DNA of 64,000 nucleotides from Rhodoluna limnophila. Lineage in GTDB: Bacteria > Actinomycetota > Actinomycetes > Actinomycetales > Microbacteriaceae. The translations under genes and the position numbers were made by a program. Shown piece by piece: positions 22,537 through 28,430 of the stretch (its first letter is position 1; each line of letters begins with the position of its first letter). The stretch covers positions 682,001-746,000 of the forward strand of contig NZ_CP040509.1 in assembly GCF_005845365.1 (NCBI RefSeq). Reading direction: 5' to 3'. Below the pieces are notes generated by a model, which was not told the DNA's origin, ran no database searches, and saw only the letters and a list, made by a program, of their open reading frames with translations.

Positions 22537-24618
22537 CTAGGCGTCGATTCTTTCTCGTTCGAAGCCATCGGCTGAGTCGATGATGAAATCACGTCTAGGG
22601 GCAACATCGTTACCCATGAGGAGCTCAAACATGGCCTCCGCCGCGGCAGCGTCTTCAACGCGAACACGCCTCAAGGTGCGTCTAGAGCGATCCATCGTGG
22701 TTTCGGCCAGCTGGTCCGCATCCATCTCGCCAAGTCCCTTGTAGCGCTGGATAGGCTCCTTGTACTTTTTTCCAGCCTTGGCTAATTTACTGAGCAGTTC
22801 CTCAAGTTCAGCTTGTGAATAGGTGTAAATAACCTCGTTGGCCTTTGAACCTGCGTTGATTACCTCCACTCGGTGCAGCGGCGGAACGGCAGCAAACACG
22901 CGCCCAACCTCAACCAGAGGCCTCATGTAGCGGAAAAACAATGTGAGTAGCAGGGTTCGAATGTGAGCACCATCCACATCGGCATCGCTCATTAGGATTA
23001 CCTTGCCGTAACGTGCCACATCTAAGTCAAAGCTTCGCCCAGAGCCTGCCCCGAGCACTTGGATGATCGACGCGCATTCGGTGTTAGACAACATGTCAGA
23101 AACCGAGGCCTTCTGGACGTTGAGAATTTTTCCTCGAATTGGAAGTAGAGCTTGGAACTCGCTGTCACGAGCTAGCTTTGCGGTTCCGAGAGCTGAGTCA
23201 CCCTCAACAATAAATAGTTCTGAACCGGCAGTCTCTTGAGTCCTGCAATCCACCAACTTGGTTGGAAGGGAACTACTCTCCAGTGCGTTCTTCCTCCGCT
23301 GCGTCTCCTTGTGTGTGCGAGCTGAAATACGGGACTTCATCTCGGCAACTACCTTTTCGAGCAAAAGGGCCGCTTGCGACTTGTCGTCACGCTTAGGGCT
23401 GTTGAATTTTTCAAGCAAAGCCTTAGAGACAACATTCGCAACAATGTTCTTGACGGCAGGGGTGCCCAGAATCTCCTTGGTTTGACCCTCAAACTGAGGT
23501 TCAGCAAGGCGGACCGTGACCACTGCAGTTAGACCGGCAAGTGCGTCTTCCTTTTCAACTTTGTCGTTGCCAGCCTTCAATTTTCTTGCGTTGGCTTCAA
23601 CCTGAGAACGCAGAACTTTAAGCACAGACTGTTCAAAACCGGCGATGTGCGTGCCGCCCTTAGGCGTCGCGATTATGTTGACGAAGCTCTTTACCTCGGT
23701 GTCGTACCCCGTCCCCCATCGGACGGCTATGTCTACGTCACACTTTCTGGAGACTTCGCGAGAAACCATGTTTCCAGACTCATCAAGCACCGGCACAGTT
23801 TCGTTGAAATCTCCCGAACCAGATAGCTTCCAGGTCGCGGTTAGAGCTGCGTCCTTGGCTAAATACTCAACGAATTCGGCAATTCCACCGTCGTACTTGA
23901 AATCGTGCTTTGCAATCTCCTGCCCTCGGCGGTCCTCAATGCCAATGGCAAGCCCTGGCACCAAAAAGGCGGTTTGCCGGGCACGACTGAAAAGTTCTTC
24001 GGACGCAAACACTGCGTCCTTGATAAAGATCTGGGGGTCCGCCCAGTAGCGCACGCGCGTACCAGAGACACCCTTTGCTACTTTGCCAACCTCGCGCAAA
24101 ACCGAAGCATCCTCAAATGGCTTGAATGGGTTTGACGGTGAAATACCGGTGGCGTCATCAAATACTCCCGGCTCACCGCGACGGAAGGACATTGCGTAAG
24201 TCTTGCCGTCTCGATCAACCTGTACATCGAGACGCTGGGACAAGGCATTAACTACCGAGGCGCCAACACCATGAAGTCCACCCGACGCGGCATAGCTACC
24301 AGATCCGAACTTTCCGCCTGCGTGGAGCTTGGTAAAGACCACTTCAACACCCGAGAGCCCGGTTTTAGGCTCAATGTCGACAGGTATACCTCTAGCACGG
24401 TCAGAAACCTCTACAGAGGTGTCGGCGTGAAGAACAATGTCAATTTGGTTACCATGCCCAGCCAGTGCCTCATCTACAGAGTTGTCGATAATCTCCCAAA
24501 GGCAGTGCATGAGGCCGCGGCTATCGGTCGAACCGATATACATTCCAGGACGCTTGCGAACGGCATCCAAACCTTCTAGAACCGATAGGTGGCGGGCTGA
24601 ATAGTCTGAATTAGGCAC
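22537..24618 (-). CDS. parE: DNA topoisomerase IV subunit B (GyrB/ParE family)
   Basis: ATPase subunit partnering the ParC encoded opposite. 693 aa. GHKL ATPase: LEGLDAVRKRPGMYIGST, EIIDNSVDEALAGH with the catalytic Glu, and GLHGVGASVVNALS. TOPRIM: IVEGDSALGTAKLARD and MSDADVDGAHIRTLLLTLFF. C-terminal QRYKGLGEMDADQLAETTMD. GTG start with TAACAT 6 nt upstream, so leaderless. A split, convergent parC/parE arrangement is common in actinobacteria and distinct from the dnaN-linked gyrBA. Confidence 0.94.
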   Translation of the reverse strand: MPNSDYSARHLSVLEGLDAVRKRPGMYIGSTDSRGLMHCLWEIIDNSVDEALAGHGNQIDIVLHADTSVEVSDRARGIPVDIEPKTGLSGVEVVFTKLHAGGKFGSGSYAASGGLHGVGASVVNALSQRLDVQVDRDGKTYAMSFRRGEPGVFDDATGISPSNPFKPFEDASVLREVGKVAKGVSGTRVRYWADPQIFIKDAVFASEELFSRARQTAFLVPGLAIGIEDRRGQEIAKHDFKYDGGIAEFVEYLAKDAALTATWKLSGSGDFNETVPVLDESGNMVSREVSRKCDVDIAVRWGTGYDTEVKSFVNIIATPKGGTHIAGFEQSVLKVLRSQVEANARKLKAGNDKVEKEDALAGLTAVVTVRLAEPQFEGQTKEILGTPAVKNIVANVVSKALLEKFNSPKRDDKSQAALLLEKVVAEMKSRISARTHKETQRRKNALESSSLPTKLVDCRTQETAGSELFIVEGDSALGTAKLARDSEFQALLPIRGKILNVQKASVSDMLSNTECASIIQVLGAGSGRSFDLDVARYGKVILMSDADVDGAHIRTLLLTLFFRYMRPLVEVGRVFAAVPPLHRVEVINAGSKANEVIYTYSQAELEELLSKLAKAGKKYKEPIQRYKGLGEMDADQLAETTMDRSRRTLRRVRVEDAAAAEAMFELLMGNDVAPRRDFIIDSADGFERERIDA

Positions 24619-24630: not shown

Positions 24631-24757
24631 ACTCTTGCCAGACTCAGACTCGGGCACAGACACGAACCACAATGGACTTCGCAGTTAGCGAACTTAGGCC
24701 ATCGATGCGCCAGTTTGGGGCAGGTTTGTGGTCCAATTGAGAGAGGAAAGGTGCATT

Positions 24758-24979
24758 ATGCAAACTGAAGCAACGACTGAAACTGGCGAGACCACCGAGA
24801 GCTACCAACTAACTGCGTTGGACCGCTGCGATGAGTGCGGCGCACAGGCTTATATTCGCGTCGAATTAGCCTCGGGTGACCTTTTGTTTTGCTCGCACCA
24901 CGGAAACGAAAAGAAGCCAGCACTTGAGCCTGTGGCTGTTGCTTGGCACGACGAGAGCAAAAAACTACTCGCTCGCTAG
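24758..24979 (+). CDS. DUF7455 family small metal-binding protein
   Basis: 73 aa. Core: YQLTALDRCDECGAQAYIRV, then LLFCSHHGNE and VAVAWHDESK, a small zinc-ribbon pattern (CDEC...CSHH) typical of the actinobacterial DUF7455 family, which is usually encoded near the primary sigma factor. I chose the ATG at 24758 because a strong Shine-Dalgarno sequence (GAGAGGAAAGG) precedes it; a GTG at 24728 gives a meaningless extension. Its 3' end overlaps the end of the convergent gatD-like gene by 15 bp. Function unknown. Confidence 0.88.
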   Translation: MQTEATTETGETTESYQLTALDRCDECGAQAYIRVELASGDLLFCSHHGNEKKPALEPVAVAWHDESKKLLAR

Positions 24980-25609
24980 TTCGGATTCCAGCTTCCATAT
25001 TTCTGAGACGTAGCCATCGATTGCGGTGGCTACGTTTCTATTTAAGCGGCCTGGCAGAGCAGAACCACGTCGCTCGAAAATCATTTCGAGAATCAGTGAA
25101 AGCAACTTCGGATTCTTAGCCAAGACCGGGCCATGAAGCTTTGTGCCAATAACGTTTCCCTGGCGAGAGATAACGGGCAGATCGTTGTCACTATTCACGT
25201 AGCCGAGAACCTCAAAACCATCGAACGGTTCGACCCAAAACTTGGACACTCGTTCGGTAGCAACAAACCTGGTCTGAATGTGCCCAAGAAGCTGTCCATG
25301 TGTGTCGCTGCCCAGGTGCAGAACCTCGAAACCGGAGTTAACGGCTAGAGTAGGCACCCCTGACTTCAATACCTCAACCAACTCGGCACCACGGTGGGAT
25401 CCAATCAGATTGATCTCACTCCAGGCGGCCTTGGATCCATGGCCGACCAACAAGAAGTCCAAATCCTTGGGAATTGCATCGGTCAACGTCACAGAAACAA
25501 CTTCGCAGGAAACACCTCTCCAAGCCAATTCCTTGGCCAGTACCAGGCTGTTGGCAGCATCACCATTCAGGTCTAGGTGGCCAGGATACAAAACACCGAT
25601 TCGAATCAT
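24965..25609 (-). CDS. GatD-like glutamine amidotransferase homologue lacking the catalytic cysteine
   Basis: 214 aa, class I (triad) GATase fold of the CobB/CobQ-like GatD family. In GatD the nucleophilic Cys lies in a LAVCxGxQ-type elbow; here the sequence is TLAVNSGFEVL, with Asn91 (codon AAC) in its place. The catalytic His is kept (GTKLHGPVLAKNP, His159). The GGGQD-type substrate loop is also altered (LLVGHGSKAAW). Glutamine hydrolysis therefore looks impossible by the usual mechanism. Its start overlaps the stop of the murT-like gene by 4 nt, so the two products probably still form a complex. It may use free ammonia, or serve as a structural subunit for ligation of another amine. Confidence 0.82.
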   Translation of the reverse strand: MIRIGVLYPGHLDLNGDAANSLVLAKELAWRGVSCEVVSVTLTDAIPKDLDFLLVGHGSKAAWSEINLIGSHRGAELVEVLKSGVPTLAVNSGFEVLHLGSDTHGQLLGHIQTRFVATERVSKFWVEPFDGFEVLGYVNSDNDLPVISRQGNVIGTKLHGPVLAKNPKLLSLILEMIFERRGSALPGRLNRNVATAIDGYVSEIWKLESELASE

Positions 25610-26874
25610 CGAGATACTGCCTCCGGGTCGGTAAAACCAAGCATTCGTCGAGTTCGACGCATGGCGTCGGCAGAGAAAATTACTGTACGGCGAGAGTGTG
25701 TCGGTGCGGGAAGTGCAAAGAAGGTATCCAGGGCAACCTGCAAATCATCAGTCACGAATCCCACAGGGATCTCCGAATACGCTAATCGAAGAGCCATTTC
25801 GTATGCGTTGTAACCAGAGACCACATCGGCATGTGACAGTACATCCATGTTCACGGTCCATAGCCAAGACGGGTCATGGACATCTCGGCCGATCATCACC
25901 ATGATTCGCTCTGGGTTGGTGGTTAGGTTATCAAGGTTGAGTTGGAAACTCATCGGGTTCTGAACCAGGATGAACTCAACTTCTTCACCGTTGACCACCG
26001 CGATCTCACCACGCGCAAAGACCGGCGGCATAGTGTTGATGGTATTTGAGGCCAATTCAAGGTCGAAATCTGCTCCGAGGTATGCCTCTGCGCTCTGTAA
26101 GGCTGCAATTGCATCAAGGGCAAAGTGCAAGCCACGATTCGGTAGCTCGACCTCAGTGACCGCCCCACTCAAAATTACACTCGCACGAAGACTGTCAACG
26201 CGCATAACCTCGGCGCTTGGAATTGGTCTTGGTATTTCTGCTTCATAAGTAGGTGCTGTACCCAGCCCGTGTTTTGCCTCCGCCAAGAGTGAGCCTGTGA
26301 TACCAAACCATTTAGTGCCTGGATGCTGAACATCTCGGTTAATGATGAGAGTGTTTTGGTCGTCAGCGTTGAGTAGGACTGTGTCATTTGCACGTCGCGC
26401 AACTTGGGCCAACTTGTCGCGAACCACGGCTGGGTCGACAAATCGATCGAGTTGATCCTCGAGGACATTAAGAATCGTTACCTGTTTCGGTCGAATTAGG
26501 CGAGTGATCTCCTCGGCATGACCCTCATCCATTTCGAGAATCGCAACGTCACCCTTTATGCGACCAAAGATATCTGATTGCTCGATGATCGACGAAAAAA
26601 ACCCTTGCGCGATGTTGGCTGTGGACGGATTCGTAAACACAGTCTTGCCATGAGCACGAGCGATTCCCACGAGCATCTTTGTAGTCGTGGATTTACCCGC
26701 AGACCCCGTGACCACAATGAGTCCATCCGAGAACTTCGAAAGAGTTGCTGCCAAAAGGCCCGGCGCAACCTTACTCACGACCAGACCGGGAAGAGCCGAA
26801 CCGCCGCCTGGACGAACCAGTCGCACAAGGACACGAACAAACCGCCCTAGGAGAATGGCCGGCAAAAAACGCAT
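25606..26874 (-). CDS. MurT-like Mur ligase without the zinc ribbon
   Basis: 422 aa. Mur-ligase central domain with P-loop VTGSAGKSTTTK (about 55-66), TNPSTANIAQGF (81-92) and LNVLEDQLDRF (about 135-145), then a DUF1727 C-terminal domain with RDVHDPSWLWTV (330-341), whose Asp334 aligns with the MurT residue thought to complete the GatD triad. MurT normally amidates the alpha-carboxyl of D-Glu in lipid II together with GatD and carries a Cys4 zinc ribbon inserted in the central domain. This protein contains no cysteine at all. It starts 2 nt after the sigma factor stop codon, so sigma factor, murT-like and gatD-like genes form one unit. Confidence 0.85.
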   Translation of the reverse strand: MRFLPAILLGRFVRVLVRLVRPGGGSALPGLVVSKVAPGLLAATLSKFSDGLIVVTGSAGKSTTTKMLVGIARAHGKTVFTNPSTANIAQGFFSSIIEQSDIFGRIKGDVAILEMDEGHAEEITRLIRPKQVTILNVLEDQLDRFVDPAVVRDKLAQVARRANDTVLLNADDQNTLIINRDVQHPGTKWFGITGSLLAEAKHGLGTAPTYEAEIPRPIPSAEVMRVDSLRASVILSGAVTEVELPNRGLHFALDAIAALQSAEAYLGADFDLELASNTINTMPPVFARGEIAVVNGEEVEFILVQNPMSFQLNLDNLTTNPERIMVMIGRDVHDPSWLWTVNMDVLSHADVVSGYNAYEMALRLAYSEIPVGFVTDDLQVALDTFFALPAPTHSRRTVIFSADAMRRTRRMLGFTDPEAVSR

Positions 26875-26876
26875 GC

Positions 26877-28430
26877 TTAGTTTTCTAGGTAGTCGCGAAG
26901 CATCTGTGAGCGCGATGGGTGGCGCAACTTAGACATTGTCTTCGACTCGATCTGACGAATGCGCTCACGGGTAACCCCGAATTCCTCACCGATCTGATCA
27001 AGAGTCTTTTGAACGCCGTCACCAAGACCGAAGCGACTTCTAATCACGCCTGCTTCACGCGGGTGTAGTGAATCAAGAATTCGCTCAAGCTCACGCTGAA
27101 GCATTGTGAAACCAACCGCATCTGCTGGCACAACCGCTTCGGTGTCCTCGATAAGGTCACCGAACTCGCTGTCGCCGTCTTCACCCAATGGAGTCGAGAG
27201 CGAAATTGGCTCGCGCCCATACTTCTGAACCTCAACGACTTTCTCAGGAGTCATGTCAAGTTCTCTCGCTAGCTCTTCAGGAGTCGGTTCGCGACCGAGG
27301 TCCTGAAGCAACTGACGCTGGACTCGAGCAAGCTTGTTGATTACCTCAACCATGTGAACTGGAATTCGGATGGTTCGCGCCTGGTCGGCCATCGCTCGTG
27401 TGATCGCTTGGCGAATCCACCAGGTTGCATAGGTCGAAAACTTGTAGCCCTTGGTGTAGTCAAACTTTTCTACCGCACGGATAAGGCCGAGGTTACCCTC
27501 TTGGATTAGATCTAGGAACTGCATACCGCGGCCGGTGTAGCGCTTAGCAAGGCTAACCACCAAACGCAGGTTTGCCTCTAGAAGATGGCTCTTAGCTCGC
27601 TGACCGTCCTTGACAACCCACTTGAGGTCGCGCTCTTCTTCTCGCGTTAGACCGGTTGCCAAAGCTAATTTCTCTTCGGCAAAAAGGCCAGCTTCGATTC
27701 GCTTAGCAAGCTCAACTTCAAGCTCTGCGTTAAGTAGGGCTACCTTTCCAATCTGCTTTAGGTAGTCCTTAACCGGGTCAGCTGTCGCACCGGTGATGGT
27801 TGTGGTCTGAACCGGAATGTCATCTTCTTCACGATTCGAAAGAACCAAAGCGCCCTCAGGAACAACGATTTTTTCGGTTTCTTCGTGCTCGTCATCGTGG
27901 TGTTCATCATCAACCGCTGCGATGTCGACTGCTGAAGCTGCCTCAGCTACGATCTCTTCGACTGACTCAAGGTCATCGATCTCTTCTTCTTCGGCATCAT
28001 CGCCGAGACCCTTAGGGGCCTTTGCTGCTTTTGGAGCCTTGGCCTTCGTTGCGGCCTTTGCCTTCGGTGCGGCTTTCTTTGCCTTTGGCTCAGATTCGAC
28101 AACGGCGTCAAGATCATTAACCTCAACGACTGCTTCAACCTTTGCTTTTGCTGTCGTTTTACCTGCTGCCTTAGGCTTCGCAGGGGCCTTCACGGCAGCC
28201 GGCGCCTCGGTAGCTGCCGACACGGCCTTCTTTGGCTTGACTGCAGCAGCTGGCTTTGCTGCCTCGGTTGAAGCCTTTGGTTGGGCCTTGGTCTTAACTG
28301 GAGTGCTAATGGTCTCAGGTTCCTTACTGATTGTTGCTGTGTCCCCCGACGACTTTTCATTTGGGTGTAAAAAGCTAGCTAGAAACCCCCGTTTTTTGCC
28401 CGGCACAGAATCATTAGATTGCTTAGCCAC
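26877..28430 (-). CDS. rpoD: Primary RNA polymerase sigma factor (SigA/HrdB type)
   Basis: Directs RNA polymerase to housekeeping promoters. 517 aa. The first 170 residues are a low-complexity Lys/Ala/Pro-rich then Glu/Asp-rich extension common in actinobacteria. Conserved regions follow: 1.2 ([20 protein letters not shown]), 2 ([40 protein letters not shown]), 3 and 4 ([13 protein letters not shown]-type segment, then [20 protein letters not shown]). GTG start preceded by GAGAGGTAGAA. It leads a tight unit with the murT-like and gatD-like genes. Confidence 0.96.

Follow-up and report, generated by a model that had tools for sequence, protein, structure and literature searches.

What does a MurT/GatD pair do once its glutaminase subunit has lost the cysteine that attacks glutamine? 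The question is raised by two adjacent genes, one gatD-like and one murT-like, in a 64,000-nucleotide stretch of Rhodoluna limnophila DNA (contig NZ_CP040509.1, positions 682,001 to 746,000; the window). We consider it likely that this Cys-less pair ligates a bridge amino acid to the alpha-carboxyl group of D-glutamate (D-Glu) in the group-B cell wall, an acceptor, donor and reaction that we infer. In such pairs the glutaminase residues are lost and the ligase residues kept; the pairs are concentrated in the Microbacteriaceae, linked to the primary sigma factor gene sigA, and exchanged there with a gene resembling that of CofE, the F420-0:gamma-glutamyl ligase. In a search of the open-access literature, we found no enzyme named for the attachment of the group-B cross-bridge to D-Glu, and we saw no assay of a Cys-less pair. 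The analysis provides candidates for such a ligase, namely the MurT/GatD pair and a second, non-homologous CofE-like protein, at a shared locus. If the proposal is true, it would explain the origin of a wall type that marks a family, and would present a glutamine amidotransferase turned into a ligase through loss of its glutaminase.

The MurT/GatD pair of the window

The two genes and the residues discussed below lie as follows.

25606..26874, minus strand: murT-like subunit, 422 amino acids; P-loop GSAGKS, N87, E114, D116/E117, D140, R144 and D334 kept; no Cys, no zinc ribbon
26689..26706, minus strand: P-loop GSAGKS of MurT, codons 57-62
24965..25609, minus strand: gatD-like pseudo-glutaminase subunit, 214 amino acids; Asn91 for Cys, His159, Arg120, Asn15 in place of the channel-plug Tyr and VGHG in place of an oxyanion loop of GGGG type
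25337..25339, minus strand: GatD codon 91, AAC (Asn91), in the nucleophile column of the alignments
25250..25252, minus strand: GatD codon CGA (Arg120), aligned with the sole Arg invariant in that region of Cys-type GatDs
25133..25135, minus strand: GatD codon 159, CAT (His159), in the catalytic His column

The initial annotation had read an Asn in place of the GatD nucleophile beside a retained catalytic His, and both codons and alignments confirmed this, Asn91 aligning with the nucleophilic Cys of Cys-type GatDs. Its description of a MurT-like partner free of Cys, with intact P-loop and DPSWLW motif, was likewise borne out in the window sequence (Cys count 0; the motif begins at codon 334). 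MurT contains Mur_ligase_M and MurT_C domains, both above Pfam cut-offs. GatD had no Pfam match at E<=0.001 and matched the solved structure of Staphylococcus aureus GatD both in sequence (E 1.5e-9) and in fold. Mean predicted local distance difference test (pLDDT) scores of the predicted folds were 90.9 for MurT and 86.5 for GatD, the class-I glutamine amidotransferase fold is present in the GatD adjoining MurT, and the best matches of both subunits among solved structures, by sequence and by predicted fold (Foldseek), were MurT/GatD enzymes.

The genes had also been described as clean, overlapping, adjacent to sigA and not decaying, which agrees with two open reading frames that overlap by 4 bases. 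Decay of the pair is unlikely because the ratio of non-synonymous to synonymous substitution rates (dN/dS) against the nearest relative (G092) was about 0.07 for MurT and about 0.17 for GatD; for this one pair of genomes, purifying selection appears to act on both genes. A second intact murT-gatD elsewhere in the genome, raised earlier as a point to settle, was looked for and not found: the genome (1,398,704 bases, 99.94% complete) has a single MurT_C gene, which is the murT of the window.

The closest known system is the lipid II isoglutaminyl synthase MurT/GatD of S. aureus, Streptococcus pneumoniae and Streptococcus pyogenes (PDB 6gs2, 6h5e, 6fqb, 9sq9, 9sqj), with which the window pair shares the two adjacent genes, the Mur-ligase middle and MurT_C domains, the GatD fold, the P-loop, the acceptor Asn, the Asp-Glu pair and the DxSW motif. 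Unlike that enzyme, the window-type GatD lacks the nucleophilic Cys, the oxyanion glycine loop and the channel-plug Tyr, and the window-type pair has a GSxGKS P-loop, a changed DNAAD region and a position beside sigA.

In the reaction that we propose, MurT would bind ATP and phosphorylate D-Glu on its alpha-carboxyl within a lipid-linked wall precursor, at the same carboxyl that is amidated by the normal MurT/GatD. A free amino acid, rather than ammonia, would then attack the acyl phosphate through its amino group and become the first residue of the cross-bridge of group-B type (position 2 to 4). GatD would no longer hydrolyse glutamine and would be kept as an obligate structural partner, perhaps docking the carboxylate of the incoming amino acid through its retained Arg; the donor in Rhodoluna would probably be D-diaminobutyrate (D-Dab). 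ATP-dependent ligation of an amino acid through an acyl phosphate, as proposed here, is also the chemistry of the Mur ligases MurC-F and of the archaeal pMur and MurT-like ligases; these have no GatD partner, and MurC-F carry an N-terminal uridine diphosphate (UDP) domain that MurT lacks. Interpeptide bridges of group-A walls are made by FemABX and D-Asp (ATP-grasp) ligases, which act on residue 3 and not on D-Glu. A search of the window's genome for FemAB (PF02388) gave no match at E<=1.

Residues lost and kept in Cys-less pairs

The residue comparison covered distinct Cys-less sequences, 190 of them ribbonless and 15 ribbon-bearing (with CxxC in MurT), together with 63 Cys sequences; residues are named by motif after S. 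pneumoniae, and their roles follow PMC6113224, PMC5871853 and PMC6085368. In the ribbonless class, which is that of the window, the third oxyanion Gly (Gly74) was found in 7/190 GatDs, Gln80 in 36/190 and the Tyr beside the catalytic His in 2/190, each being present in 63/63 Cys types, and the Tyr plugging the ammonia channel occurred in 0/190 ribbonless, 1/15 ribbon-class and 63/63 Cys-type proteins. The P-loop Lys, the acceptor Asn (N85), E110, D112, E113, R140, R304 and D355, on the other hand, were kept in all 189 ribbonless Cys-less MurTs that could be compared (one row was gapped), with an altered DNAAD/ADGRD substrate region. Because the ligase residues are kept and those of the glutaminase lost, carboxylate activation looks to have been preserved in the window's class and glutamine hydrolysis not.

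A putative glutamine-capturing Arg was kept in 170/190 ribbonless, 14/15 ribbon-class and 63/63 Cys-type GatDs; from its place, Arg120 of the window protein is taken to be this residue (S. aureus R128, S. pneumoniae R142). The nucleophile column of 169 family pairs held Gly in 96, Ala in 23, Cys in 22, His in 12, Ser in 8, Asn in 5 and Thr in 3; a Ser stands there, for example, in locus L068 of genome G015.

Distribution in the family, order and phylum

The family sample consisted of 199 Microbacteriaceae genomes searched for MurT, of which 63 were searched again with a profile and 36 with MurT_C before the loci were read. Absence in the first search was rejected as true absence, the profile search having recovered divergent pairs; the 36 genomes left after it gave no MurT_C match. 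A Cys-less pair was found in 125 genomes, a Cys-less pair with CxxC in MurT in 15, Cys and Cys-less pairs together in 4, a Cys pair only in 18 and no MurT in 36, with one fragment (G038) not assigned to a class.

Cys-less pairs were thus present in 144/199 Microbacteriaceae genomes compared with 0/41 MurT-bearing genomes of other families in the order (sample of 119 genomes, with G305 counted within the family); in all 41 both Cys and His were present in GatD. The Cys loss is therefore not confined to the window's own lineage, a possibility that the initial annotation had raised. Within the family the two kinds of pair avoid each other, a Cys-less pair occurring in 4/22 genomes with a Cys pair and in 140/177 without one (p 2.6e-8), as expected if both compete for one carboxyl. 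In the order sample, 73/119 genomes gave no MurT match at E<=1e-20, which is at odds with the description of murT-gatD as universal in Actinobacteria.

The phylum sample comprised 198 genomes, 90 with a MurT match, from which 66 new loci were read, 4 further loci being known already. GatD lay beside MurT in 60/66 of the new loci, and 58/60 of these GatDs had Cys, His and Tyr, the other 2/60 being Cys-less. In six phylum-sample genomes a MurT was seen with no GatD found in the stretch (L401, L407, L408, L409, L412, L413).

A collection of named records was searched with a Cys-less profile, and among the best 80 of 216 loci the nucleophilic Cys was found in 0/77 with a readable GatD; because the search profile was itself Cys-less, these loci are no evidence for an absence of Cys pairs. 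Most are titled as Microbacteriaceae genera, the closest records being metagenome-assembled genomes (MAGs) of Rhodoluna, and a few are MAGs or assemblies under other titles (Auritidibacter, Cellulomonadaceae, Acidobacteria, Planococcus).

The sigA locus and two probable origins of Cys-less pairs

The locus in the window is bordered by the following genes.

26877..28430, minus strand: sigA, primary sigma factor, directly upstream of murT; conserved landmark for Cys-less pairs or the CofE-like gene
24728..24979, plus strand: small zinc-finger-like gene, which we take to be DUF7455, convergent with gatD; usual other border of the locus
22537..24618, minus strand: gene for a ParE/GyrB-like topoisomerase (identified by eye), at the outer edge of the conserved locus

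Counted per genome, sigA adjoins the Cys-less pair in 126/129 ribbonless genomes and in 13/15 ribbon genomes, and adjoins the Cys pair in 0/22. Where a Cys pair was the sole kind present, sigA was directly followed by the small gene and/or parE in 16/18 genomes. Nothing was recognised directly after sigA in one of the others (G181), and in G151 (L359) a MurT-like frame lies directly behind sigA, where any GatD would fall outside the stretch.

In a MurT tree of 145 representatives, made by a quick method and with some long branches, ribbonless and ribbon-bearing Cys-less MurTs formed two separate clades (Shimodaira-Hasegawa-like approximate likelihood ratio test, SH-aLRT, 100 and 98). Judged from these two clades, at least two losses of the Cys are probable, with the products of both coming to lie at the sigA locus. 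Many independent losses had been considered and were rejected, as the tree reduces the losses to two clades.

A CofE-like gene as substitute

In 23 of the 36 MurT-less family genomes, the frame directly 3' of sigA encodes 229-254 amino acids and belongs to one protein family (24 counting a genome with an intervening gene); sigA was sought in all 36, G022 giving another sigma factor only and the contig of G044 ending 186 bases behind sigA. Two of these proteins were tested and both matched F420_ligase (PF01996) above the cut-off, whereas the one tested against the true-CofE cut-off of 180.65 bits scored 30.7 bits. A strong CofE-like gene (E<1e-100) was present in 27/199 family genomes, that is in 27/36 without MurT and 0/163 with MurT (Fisher 5.5e-26, uncorrected for relatedness). 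Because both solutions, Cys-less pair and CofE-like gene, occur within each of 10 genera (in one of which, g12, the CofE-like gene lies away from sigA), the exchange between them has happened repeatedly. In the 9 family genomes with neither MurT nor a strong CofE-like gene, the stretch behind sigA held the small gene and/or parE in 5 and what resembles a transporter operon in 3, one being not resolved.

CofE adds glutamate via an acyl phosphate, by a mechanism likened to that of MurD, to which it is called non-homologous (PMC10861534). Its likeness to the present system consists in this acyl-phosphate ligation of an amino acid and in the CofE-like protein occupying the same slot beside sigA, although the score of that protein sets it well apart from true CofE. 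Outside the family, weaker CofE-like matches (1e-47 to 1e-60) were found in 8 genomes of the order sample, with MurT in none of the 8. In the one of these that was read (G209, L375 1441-3714, minus strand), one protein joins a CofE-like domain (PF01996 19.5 bits, below cut-off) to an asparagine-synthetase domain (PF00733 E 4.7e-13) and is encoded beside a gene that by eye is dapA-like; this fusion is a possible alternative wall-amidating enzyme. In our reading, amidating systems join a ligase to an ammonia maker, and both kinds of ligase in the group-B family would have dropped the ammonia maker.

Wall chemistry and alternative functions

The Microbacteriaceae as a whole are described as group B (PMC10978784). 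The wall of Rhodoluna lacicola is B2beta with Dab, and D-Ala-D-Dab was found in it (PMC4156110); Subtercola and Agreia are B2gamma and Frondihabitans B2beta (PMC5945732), and Clavibacter has a B2 wall (PMC9603630). Cys-less pairs were read in named records from all five of these genera. Microbacterium species are reported to have L-Lys, D-ornithine (D-Orn) or Dab (PMC10757982), and Dab and Orn are reported for Cryobacterium.

The proposal that the pair is a candidate group-B ligase was already made in the initial annotation, and it keeps the support of a conserved and family-concentrated Cys loss, of ligase residues kept, and of the swap with the CofE-like gene at sigA. Loss of the zinc ribbon, which had been counted as part of the anomaly and as a sign of new function, falls away: it is uninformative because CxxC is also missing from MurT in 27 of the 41 pairs with intact Cys and His in the order's other families, and because 15 family genomes have a Cys-less pair with CxxC in MurT.

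Several observations weigh against a bridge-forming role. Neither a Cys-less pair nor a strong CofE-like gene was found in 27/199 family genomes (18 with a Cys pair only, and the 9 with neither MurT nor a CofE-like gene), and G016, which shares its genus label with Amnibacterium, has a Cys pair only. The two Cys-less pairs of the phylum sample, single-chain MurT-GatD fusions with CxxC motifs (L445 and L448; genomes G408 and G419), both belong to one genus outside the Microbacteriaceae. The catalytic His was kept in 84/147 Cys-less family pairs (lost in 63/147), which is not expected of an idle site. The ribbon class is less clearly a working ligase because Asp355 is lost in 15/15 of its MurTs (Asn in 13, Met or Thr in 2), Asp112 in 2/15 and Arg140 in 2/15. 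Weak CofE-like matches (1e-38 to 1e-45) were found in three MurT-bearing genomes, in two of which (G123 and G053) the weak CofE-like gene adjoins a Cys-less ribbon MurT/GatD. Finally, the racemase-like genes described below adjoin none of the pairs of the window's own clade I (0/94 loci; racemase locus counts here and below include some genomes twice, as named record and sampled genome).

Two further adverse points are also what favours the main rival, in which the pair still makes D-isoglutamine from free NH3/NH4+ or from the NH3 of another glutaminase. The S. aureus GatD mutation C94G abolished Gln-dependent amidation and left NH3-dependent activity at pH 8.5 (PMC3266927), so that loss of the Cys alone does not abolish amidation; and D-Glu amidation is listed by mass spectrometry among Clavibacter muropeptides (PMC9603630). 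The unchanged catalytic residues of the ribbonless-class MurT would also suit amidation. At pH 7.5, however, neither wild type nor C94G used NH3 (PMC3266927), and the rival would need free ammonia in vivo. In the pairs themselves the ammonia path has lost its Tyr plug and oxyanion loop, and the protein that stands in for them at the locus comes from a family in which the known member is an amino-acid ligase, a swap that amidation leaves unexplained. On balance we hold amidation to be unlikely, with a small but real probability.

Ligation by the sigA-locus enzymes of amino acids onto a cofactor such as F420, or onto another glutamylated metabolite, instead of lipid II, appears improbable to us. 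CofE proper does tail F420 with glutamate (PMC10861534), and the neighbours sigA and parE are uninformative on walls. Yet the solved structures that best match the window MurT and GatD, by sequence and fold, are lipid II enzymes, the tested CofE-like protein falls far short of the true-CofE cut-off, outside the family a related CofE-like domain occurs in fusion with an asparagine-synthetase domain and next to a dapA-like gene, and Cys and Cys-less pairs avoid each other. A non-catalytic or decaying relic, with the pseudo-amidotransferase as scaffold or regulator, is very improbable, since the GatD active site is indeed lost but the MurT active-site residues stand in 189/189 of the ribbonless class, dN/dS in the one genome pair is well under 1, and the pair is replaced elsewhere by a ligase of another kind.

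Joining bridge formation by the Cys-less pair with the history of the locus gives a broader and more tentative reading, to which we give somewhat less than an even chance: that the group-B walls of the Microbacteriaceae arose when enzymes of amidation were converted to the ligation of amino acids. Three or more ligases, either unrelated or of separate derivation, would replace one another at a single locus linked to sigA: the ribbonless Cys-less MurT/GatD, its ribbon-bearing Cys-less counterpart and a stand-alone CofE-like protein. Each would lack the ammonia-making part of an amidating relative, and some would lie beside a split, two-gene racemase that supplies the D-amino acid; the inactive GatD may use its conserved Arg to dock the incoming amino acid.

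Racemase-like and other neighbouring genes

Alanine-racemase-family genes adjoin 62/120 clade II loci, many of them with short flanks, and adjoin the CofE-like gene in 4/4 longer stretches. They are of two half-site types: the first kept the Lys that binds pyridoxal phosphate (PLP) in 29/30 covered sequences and lacked the Tyr motif in 54/55, and the second had the PLP Lys in 0/37 covered sequences and kept the Tyr in 43/46. Adjacent racemase-like genes with complementary half sites were seen at L386 (4044-5923, minus strand), L104 (5147-6837), L122, L123, L137 and others, with the appearance of a heterodimeric racemase divided over two genes next to the ligase locus. Such neighbours are consistent with a supply of D-amino acids in part of the family.

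In G020 (L379 5445-8603), a class-III aminotransferase (TIGR00709 above cut-off) lies between sigA and the CofE-like gene, with a sugar-transfer-associated ATP-grasp gene next on the other strand; no ectoine genes were noticed alongside. TIGR00709, the Dab aminotransferase model, was tried as a marker of wall type and rejected as uninformative, 35/36 genomes matching it loosely and 9/36 above the cut-off. In G123 (L376 3857-8879, minus strand), an apparent operon consists of sigA, the CofE-like gene, the ribbon MurT, the Cys-less GatD and then a racemase-like gene, which lacks the PLP Lys and has the N-terminal motif GADAWGHG.

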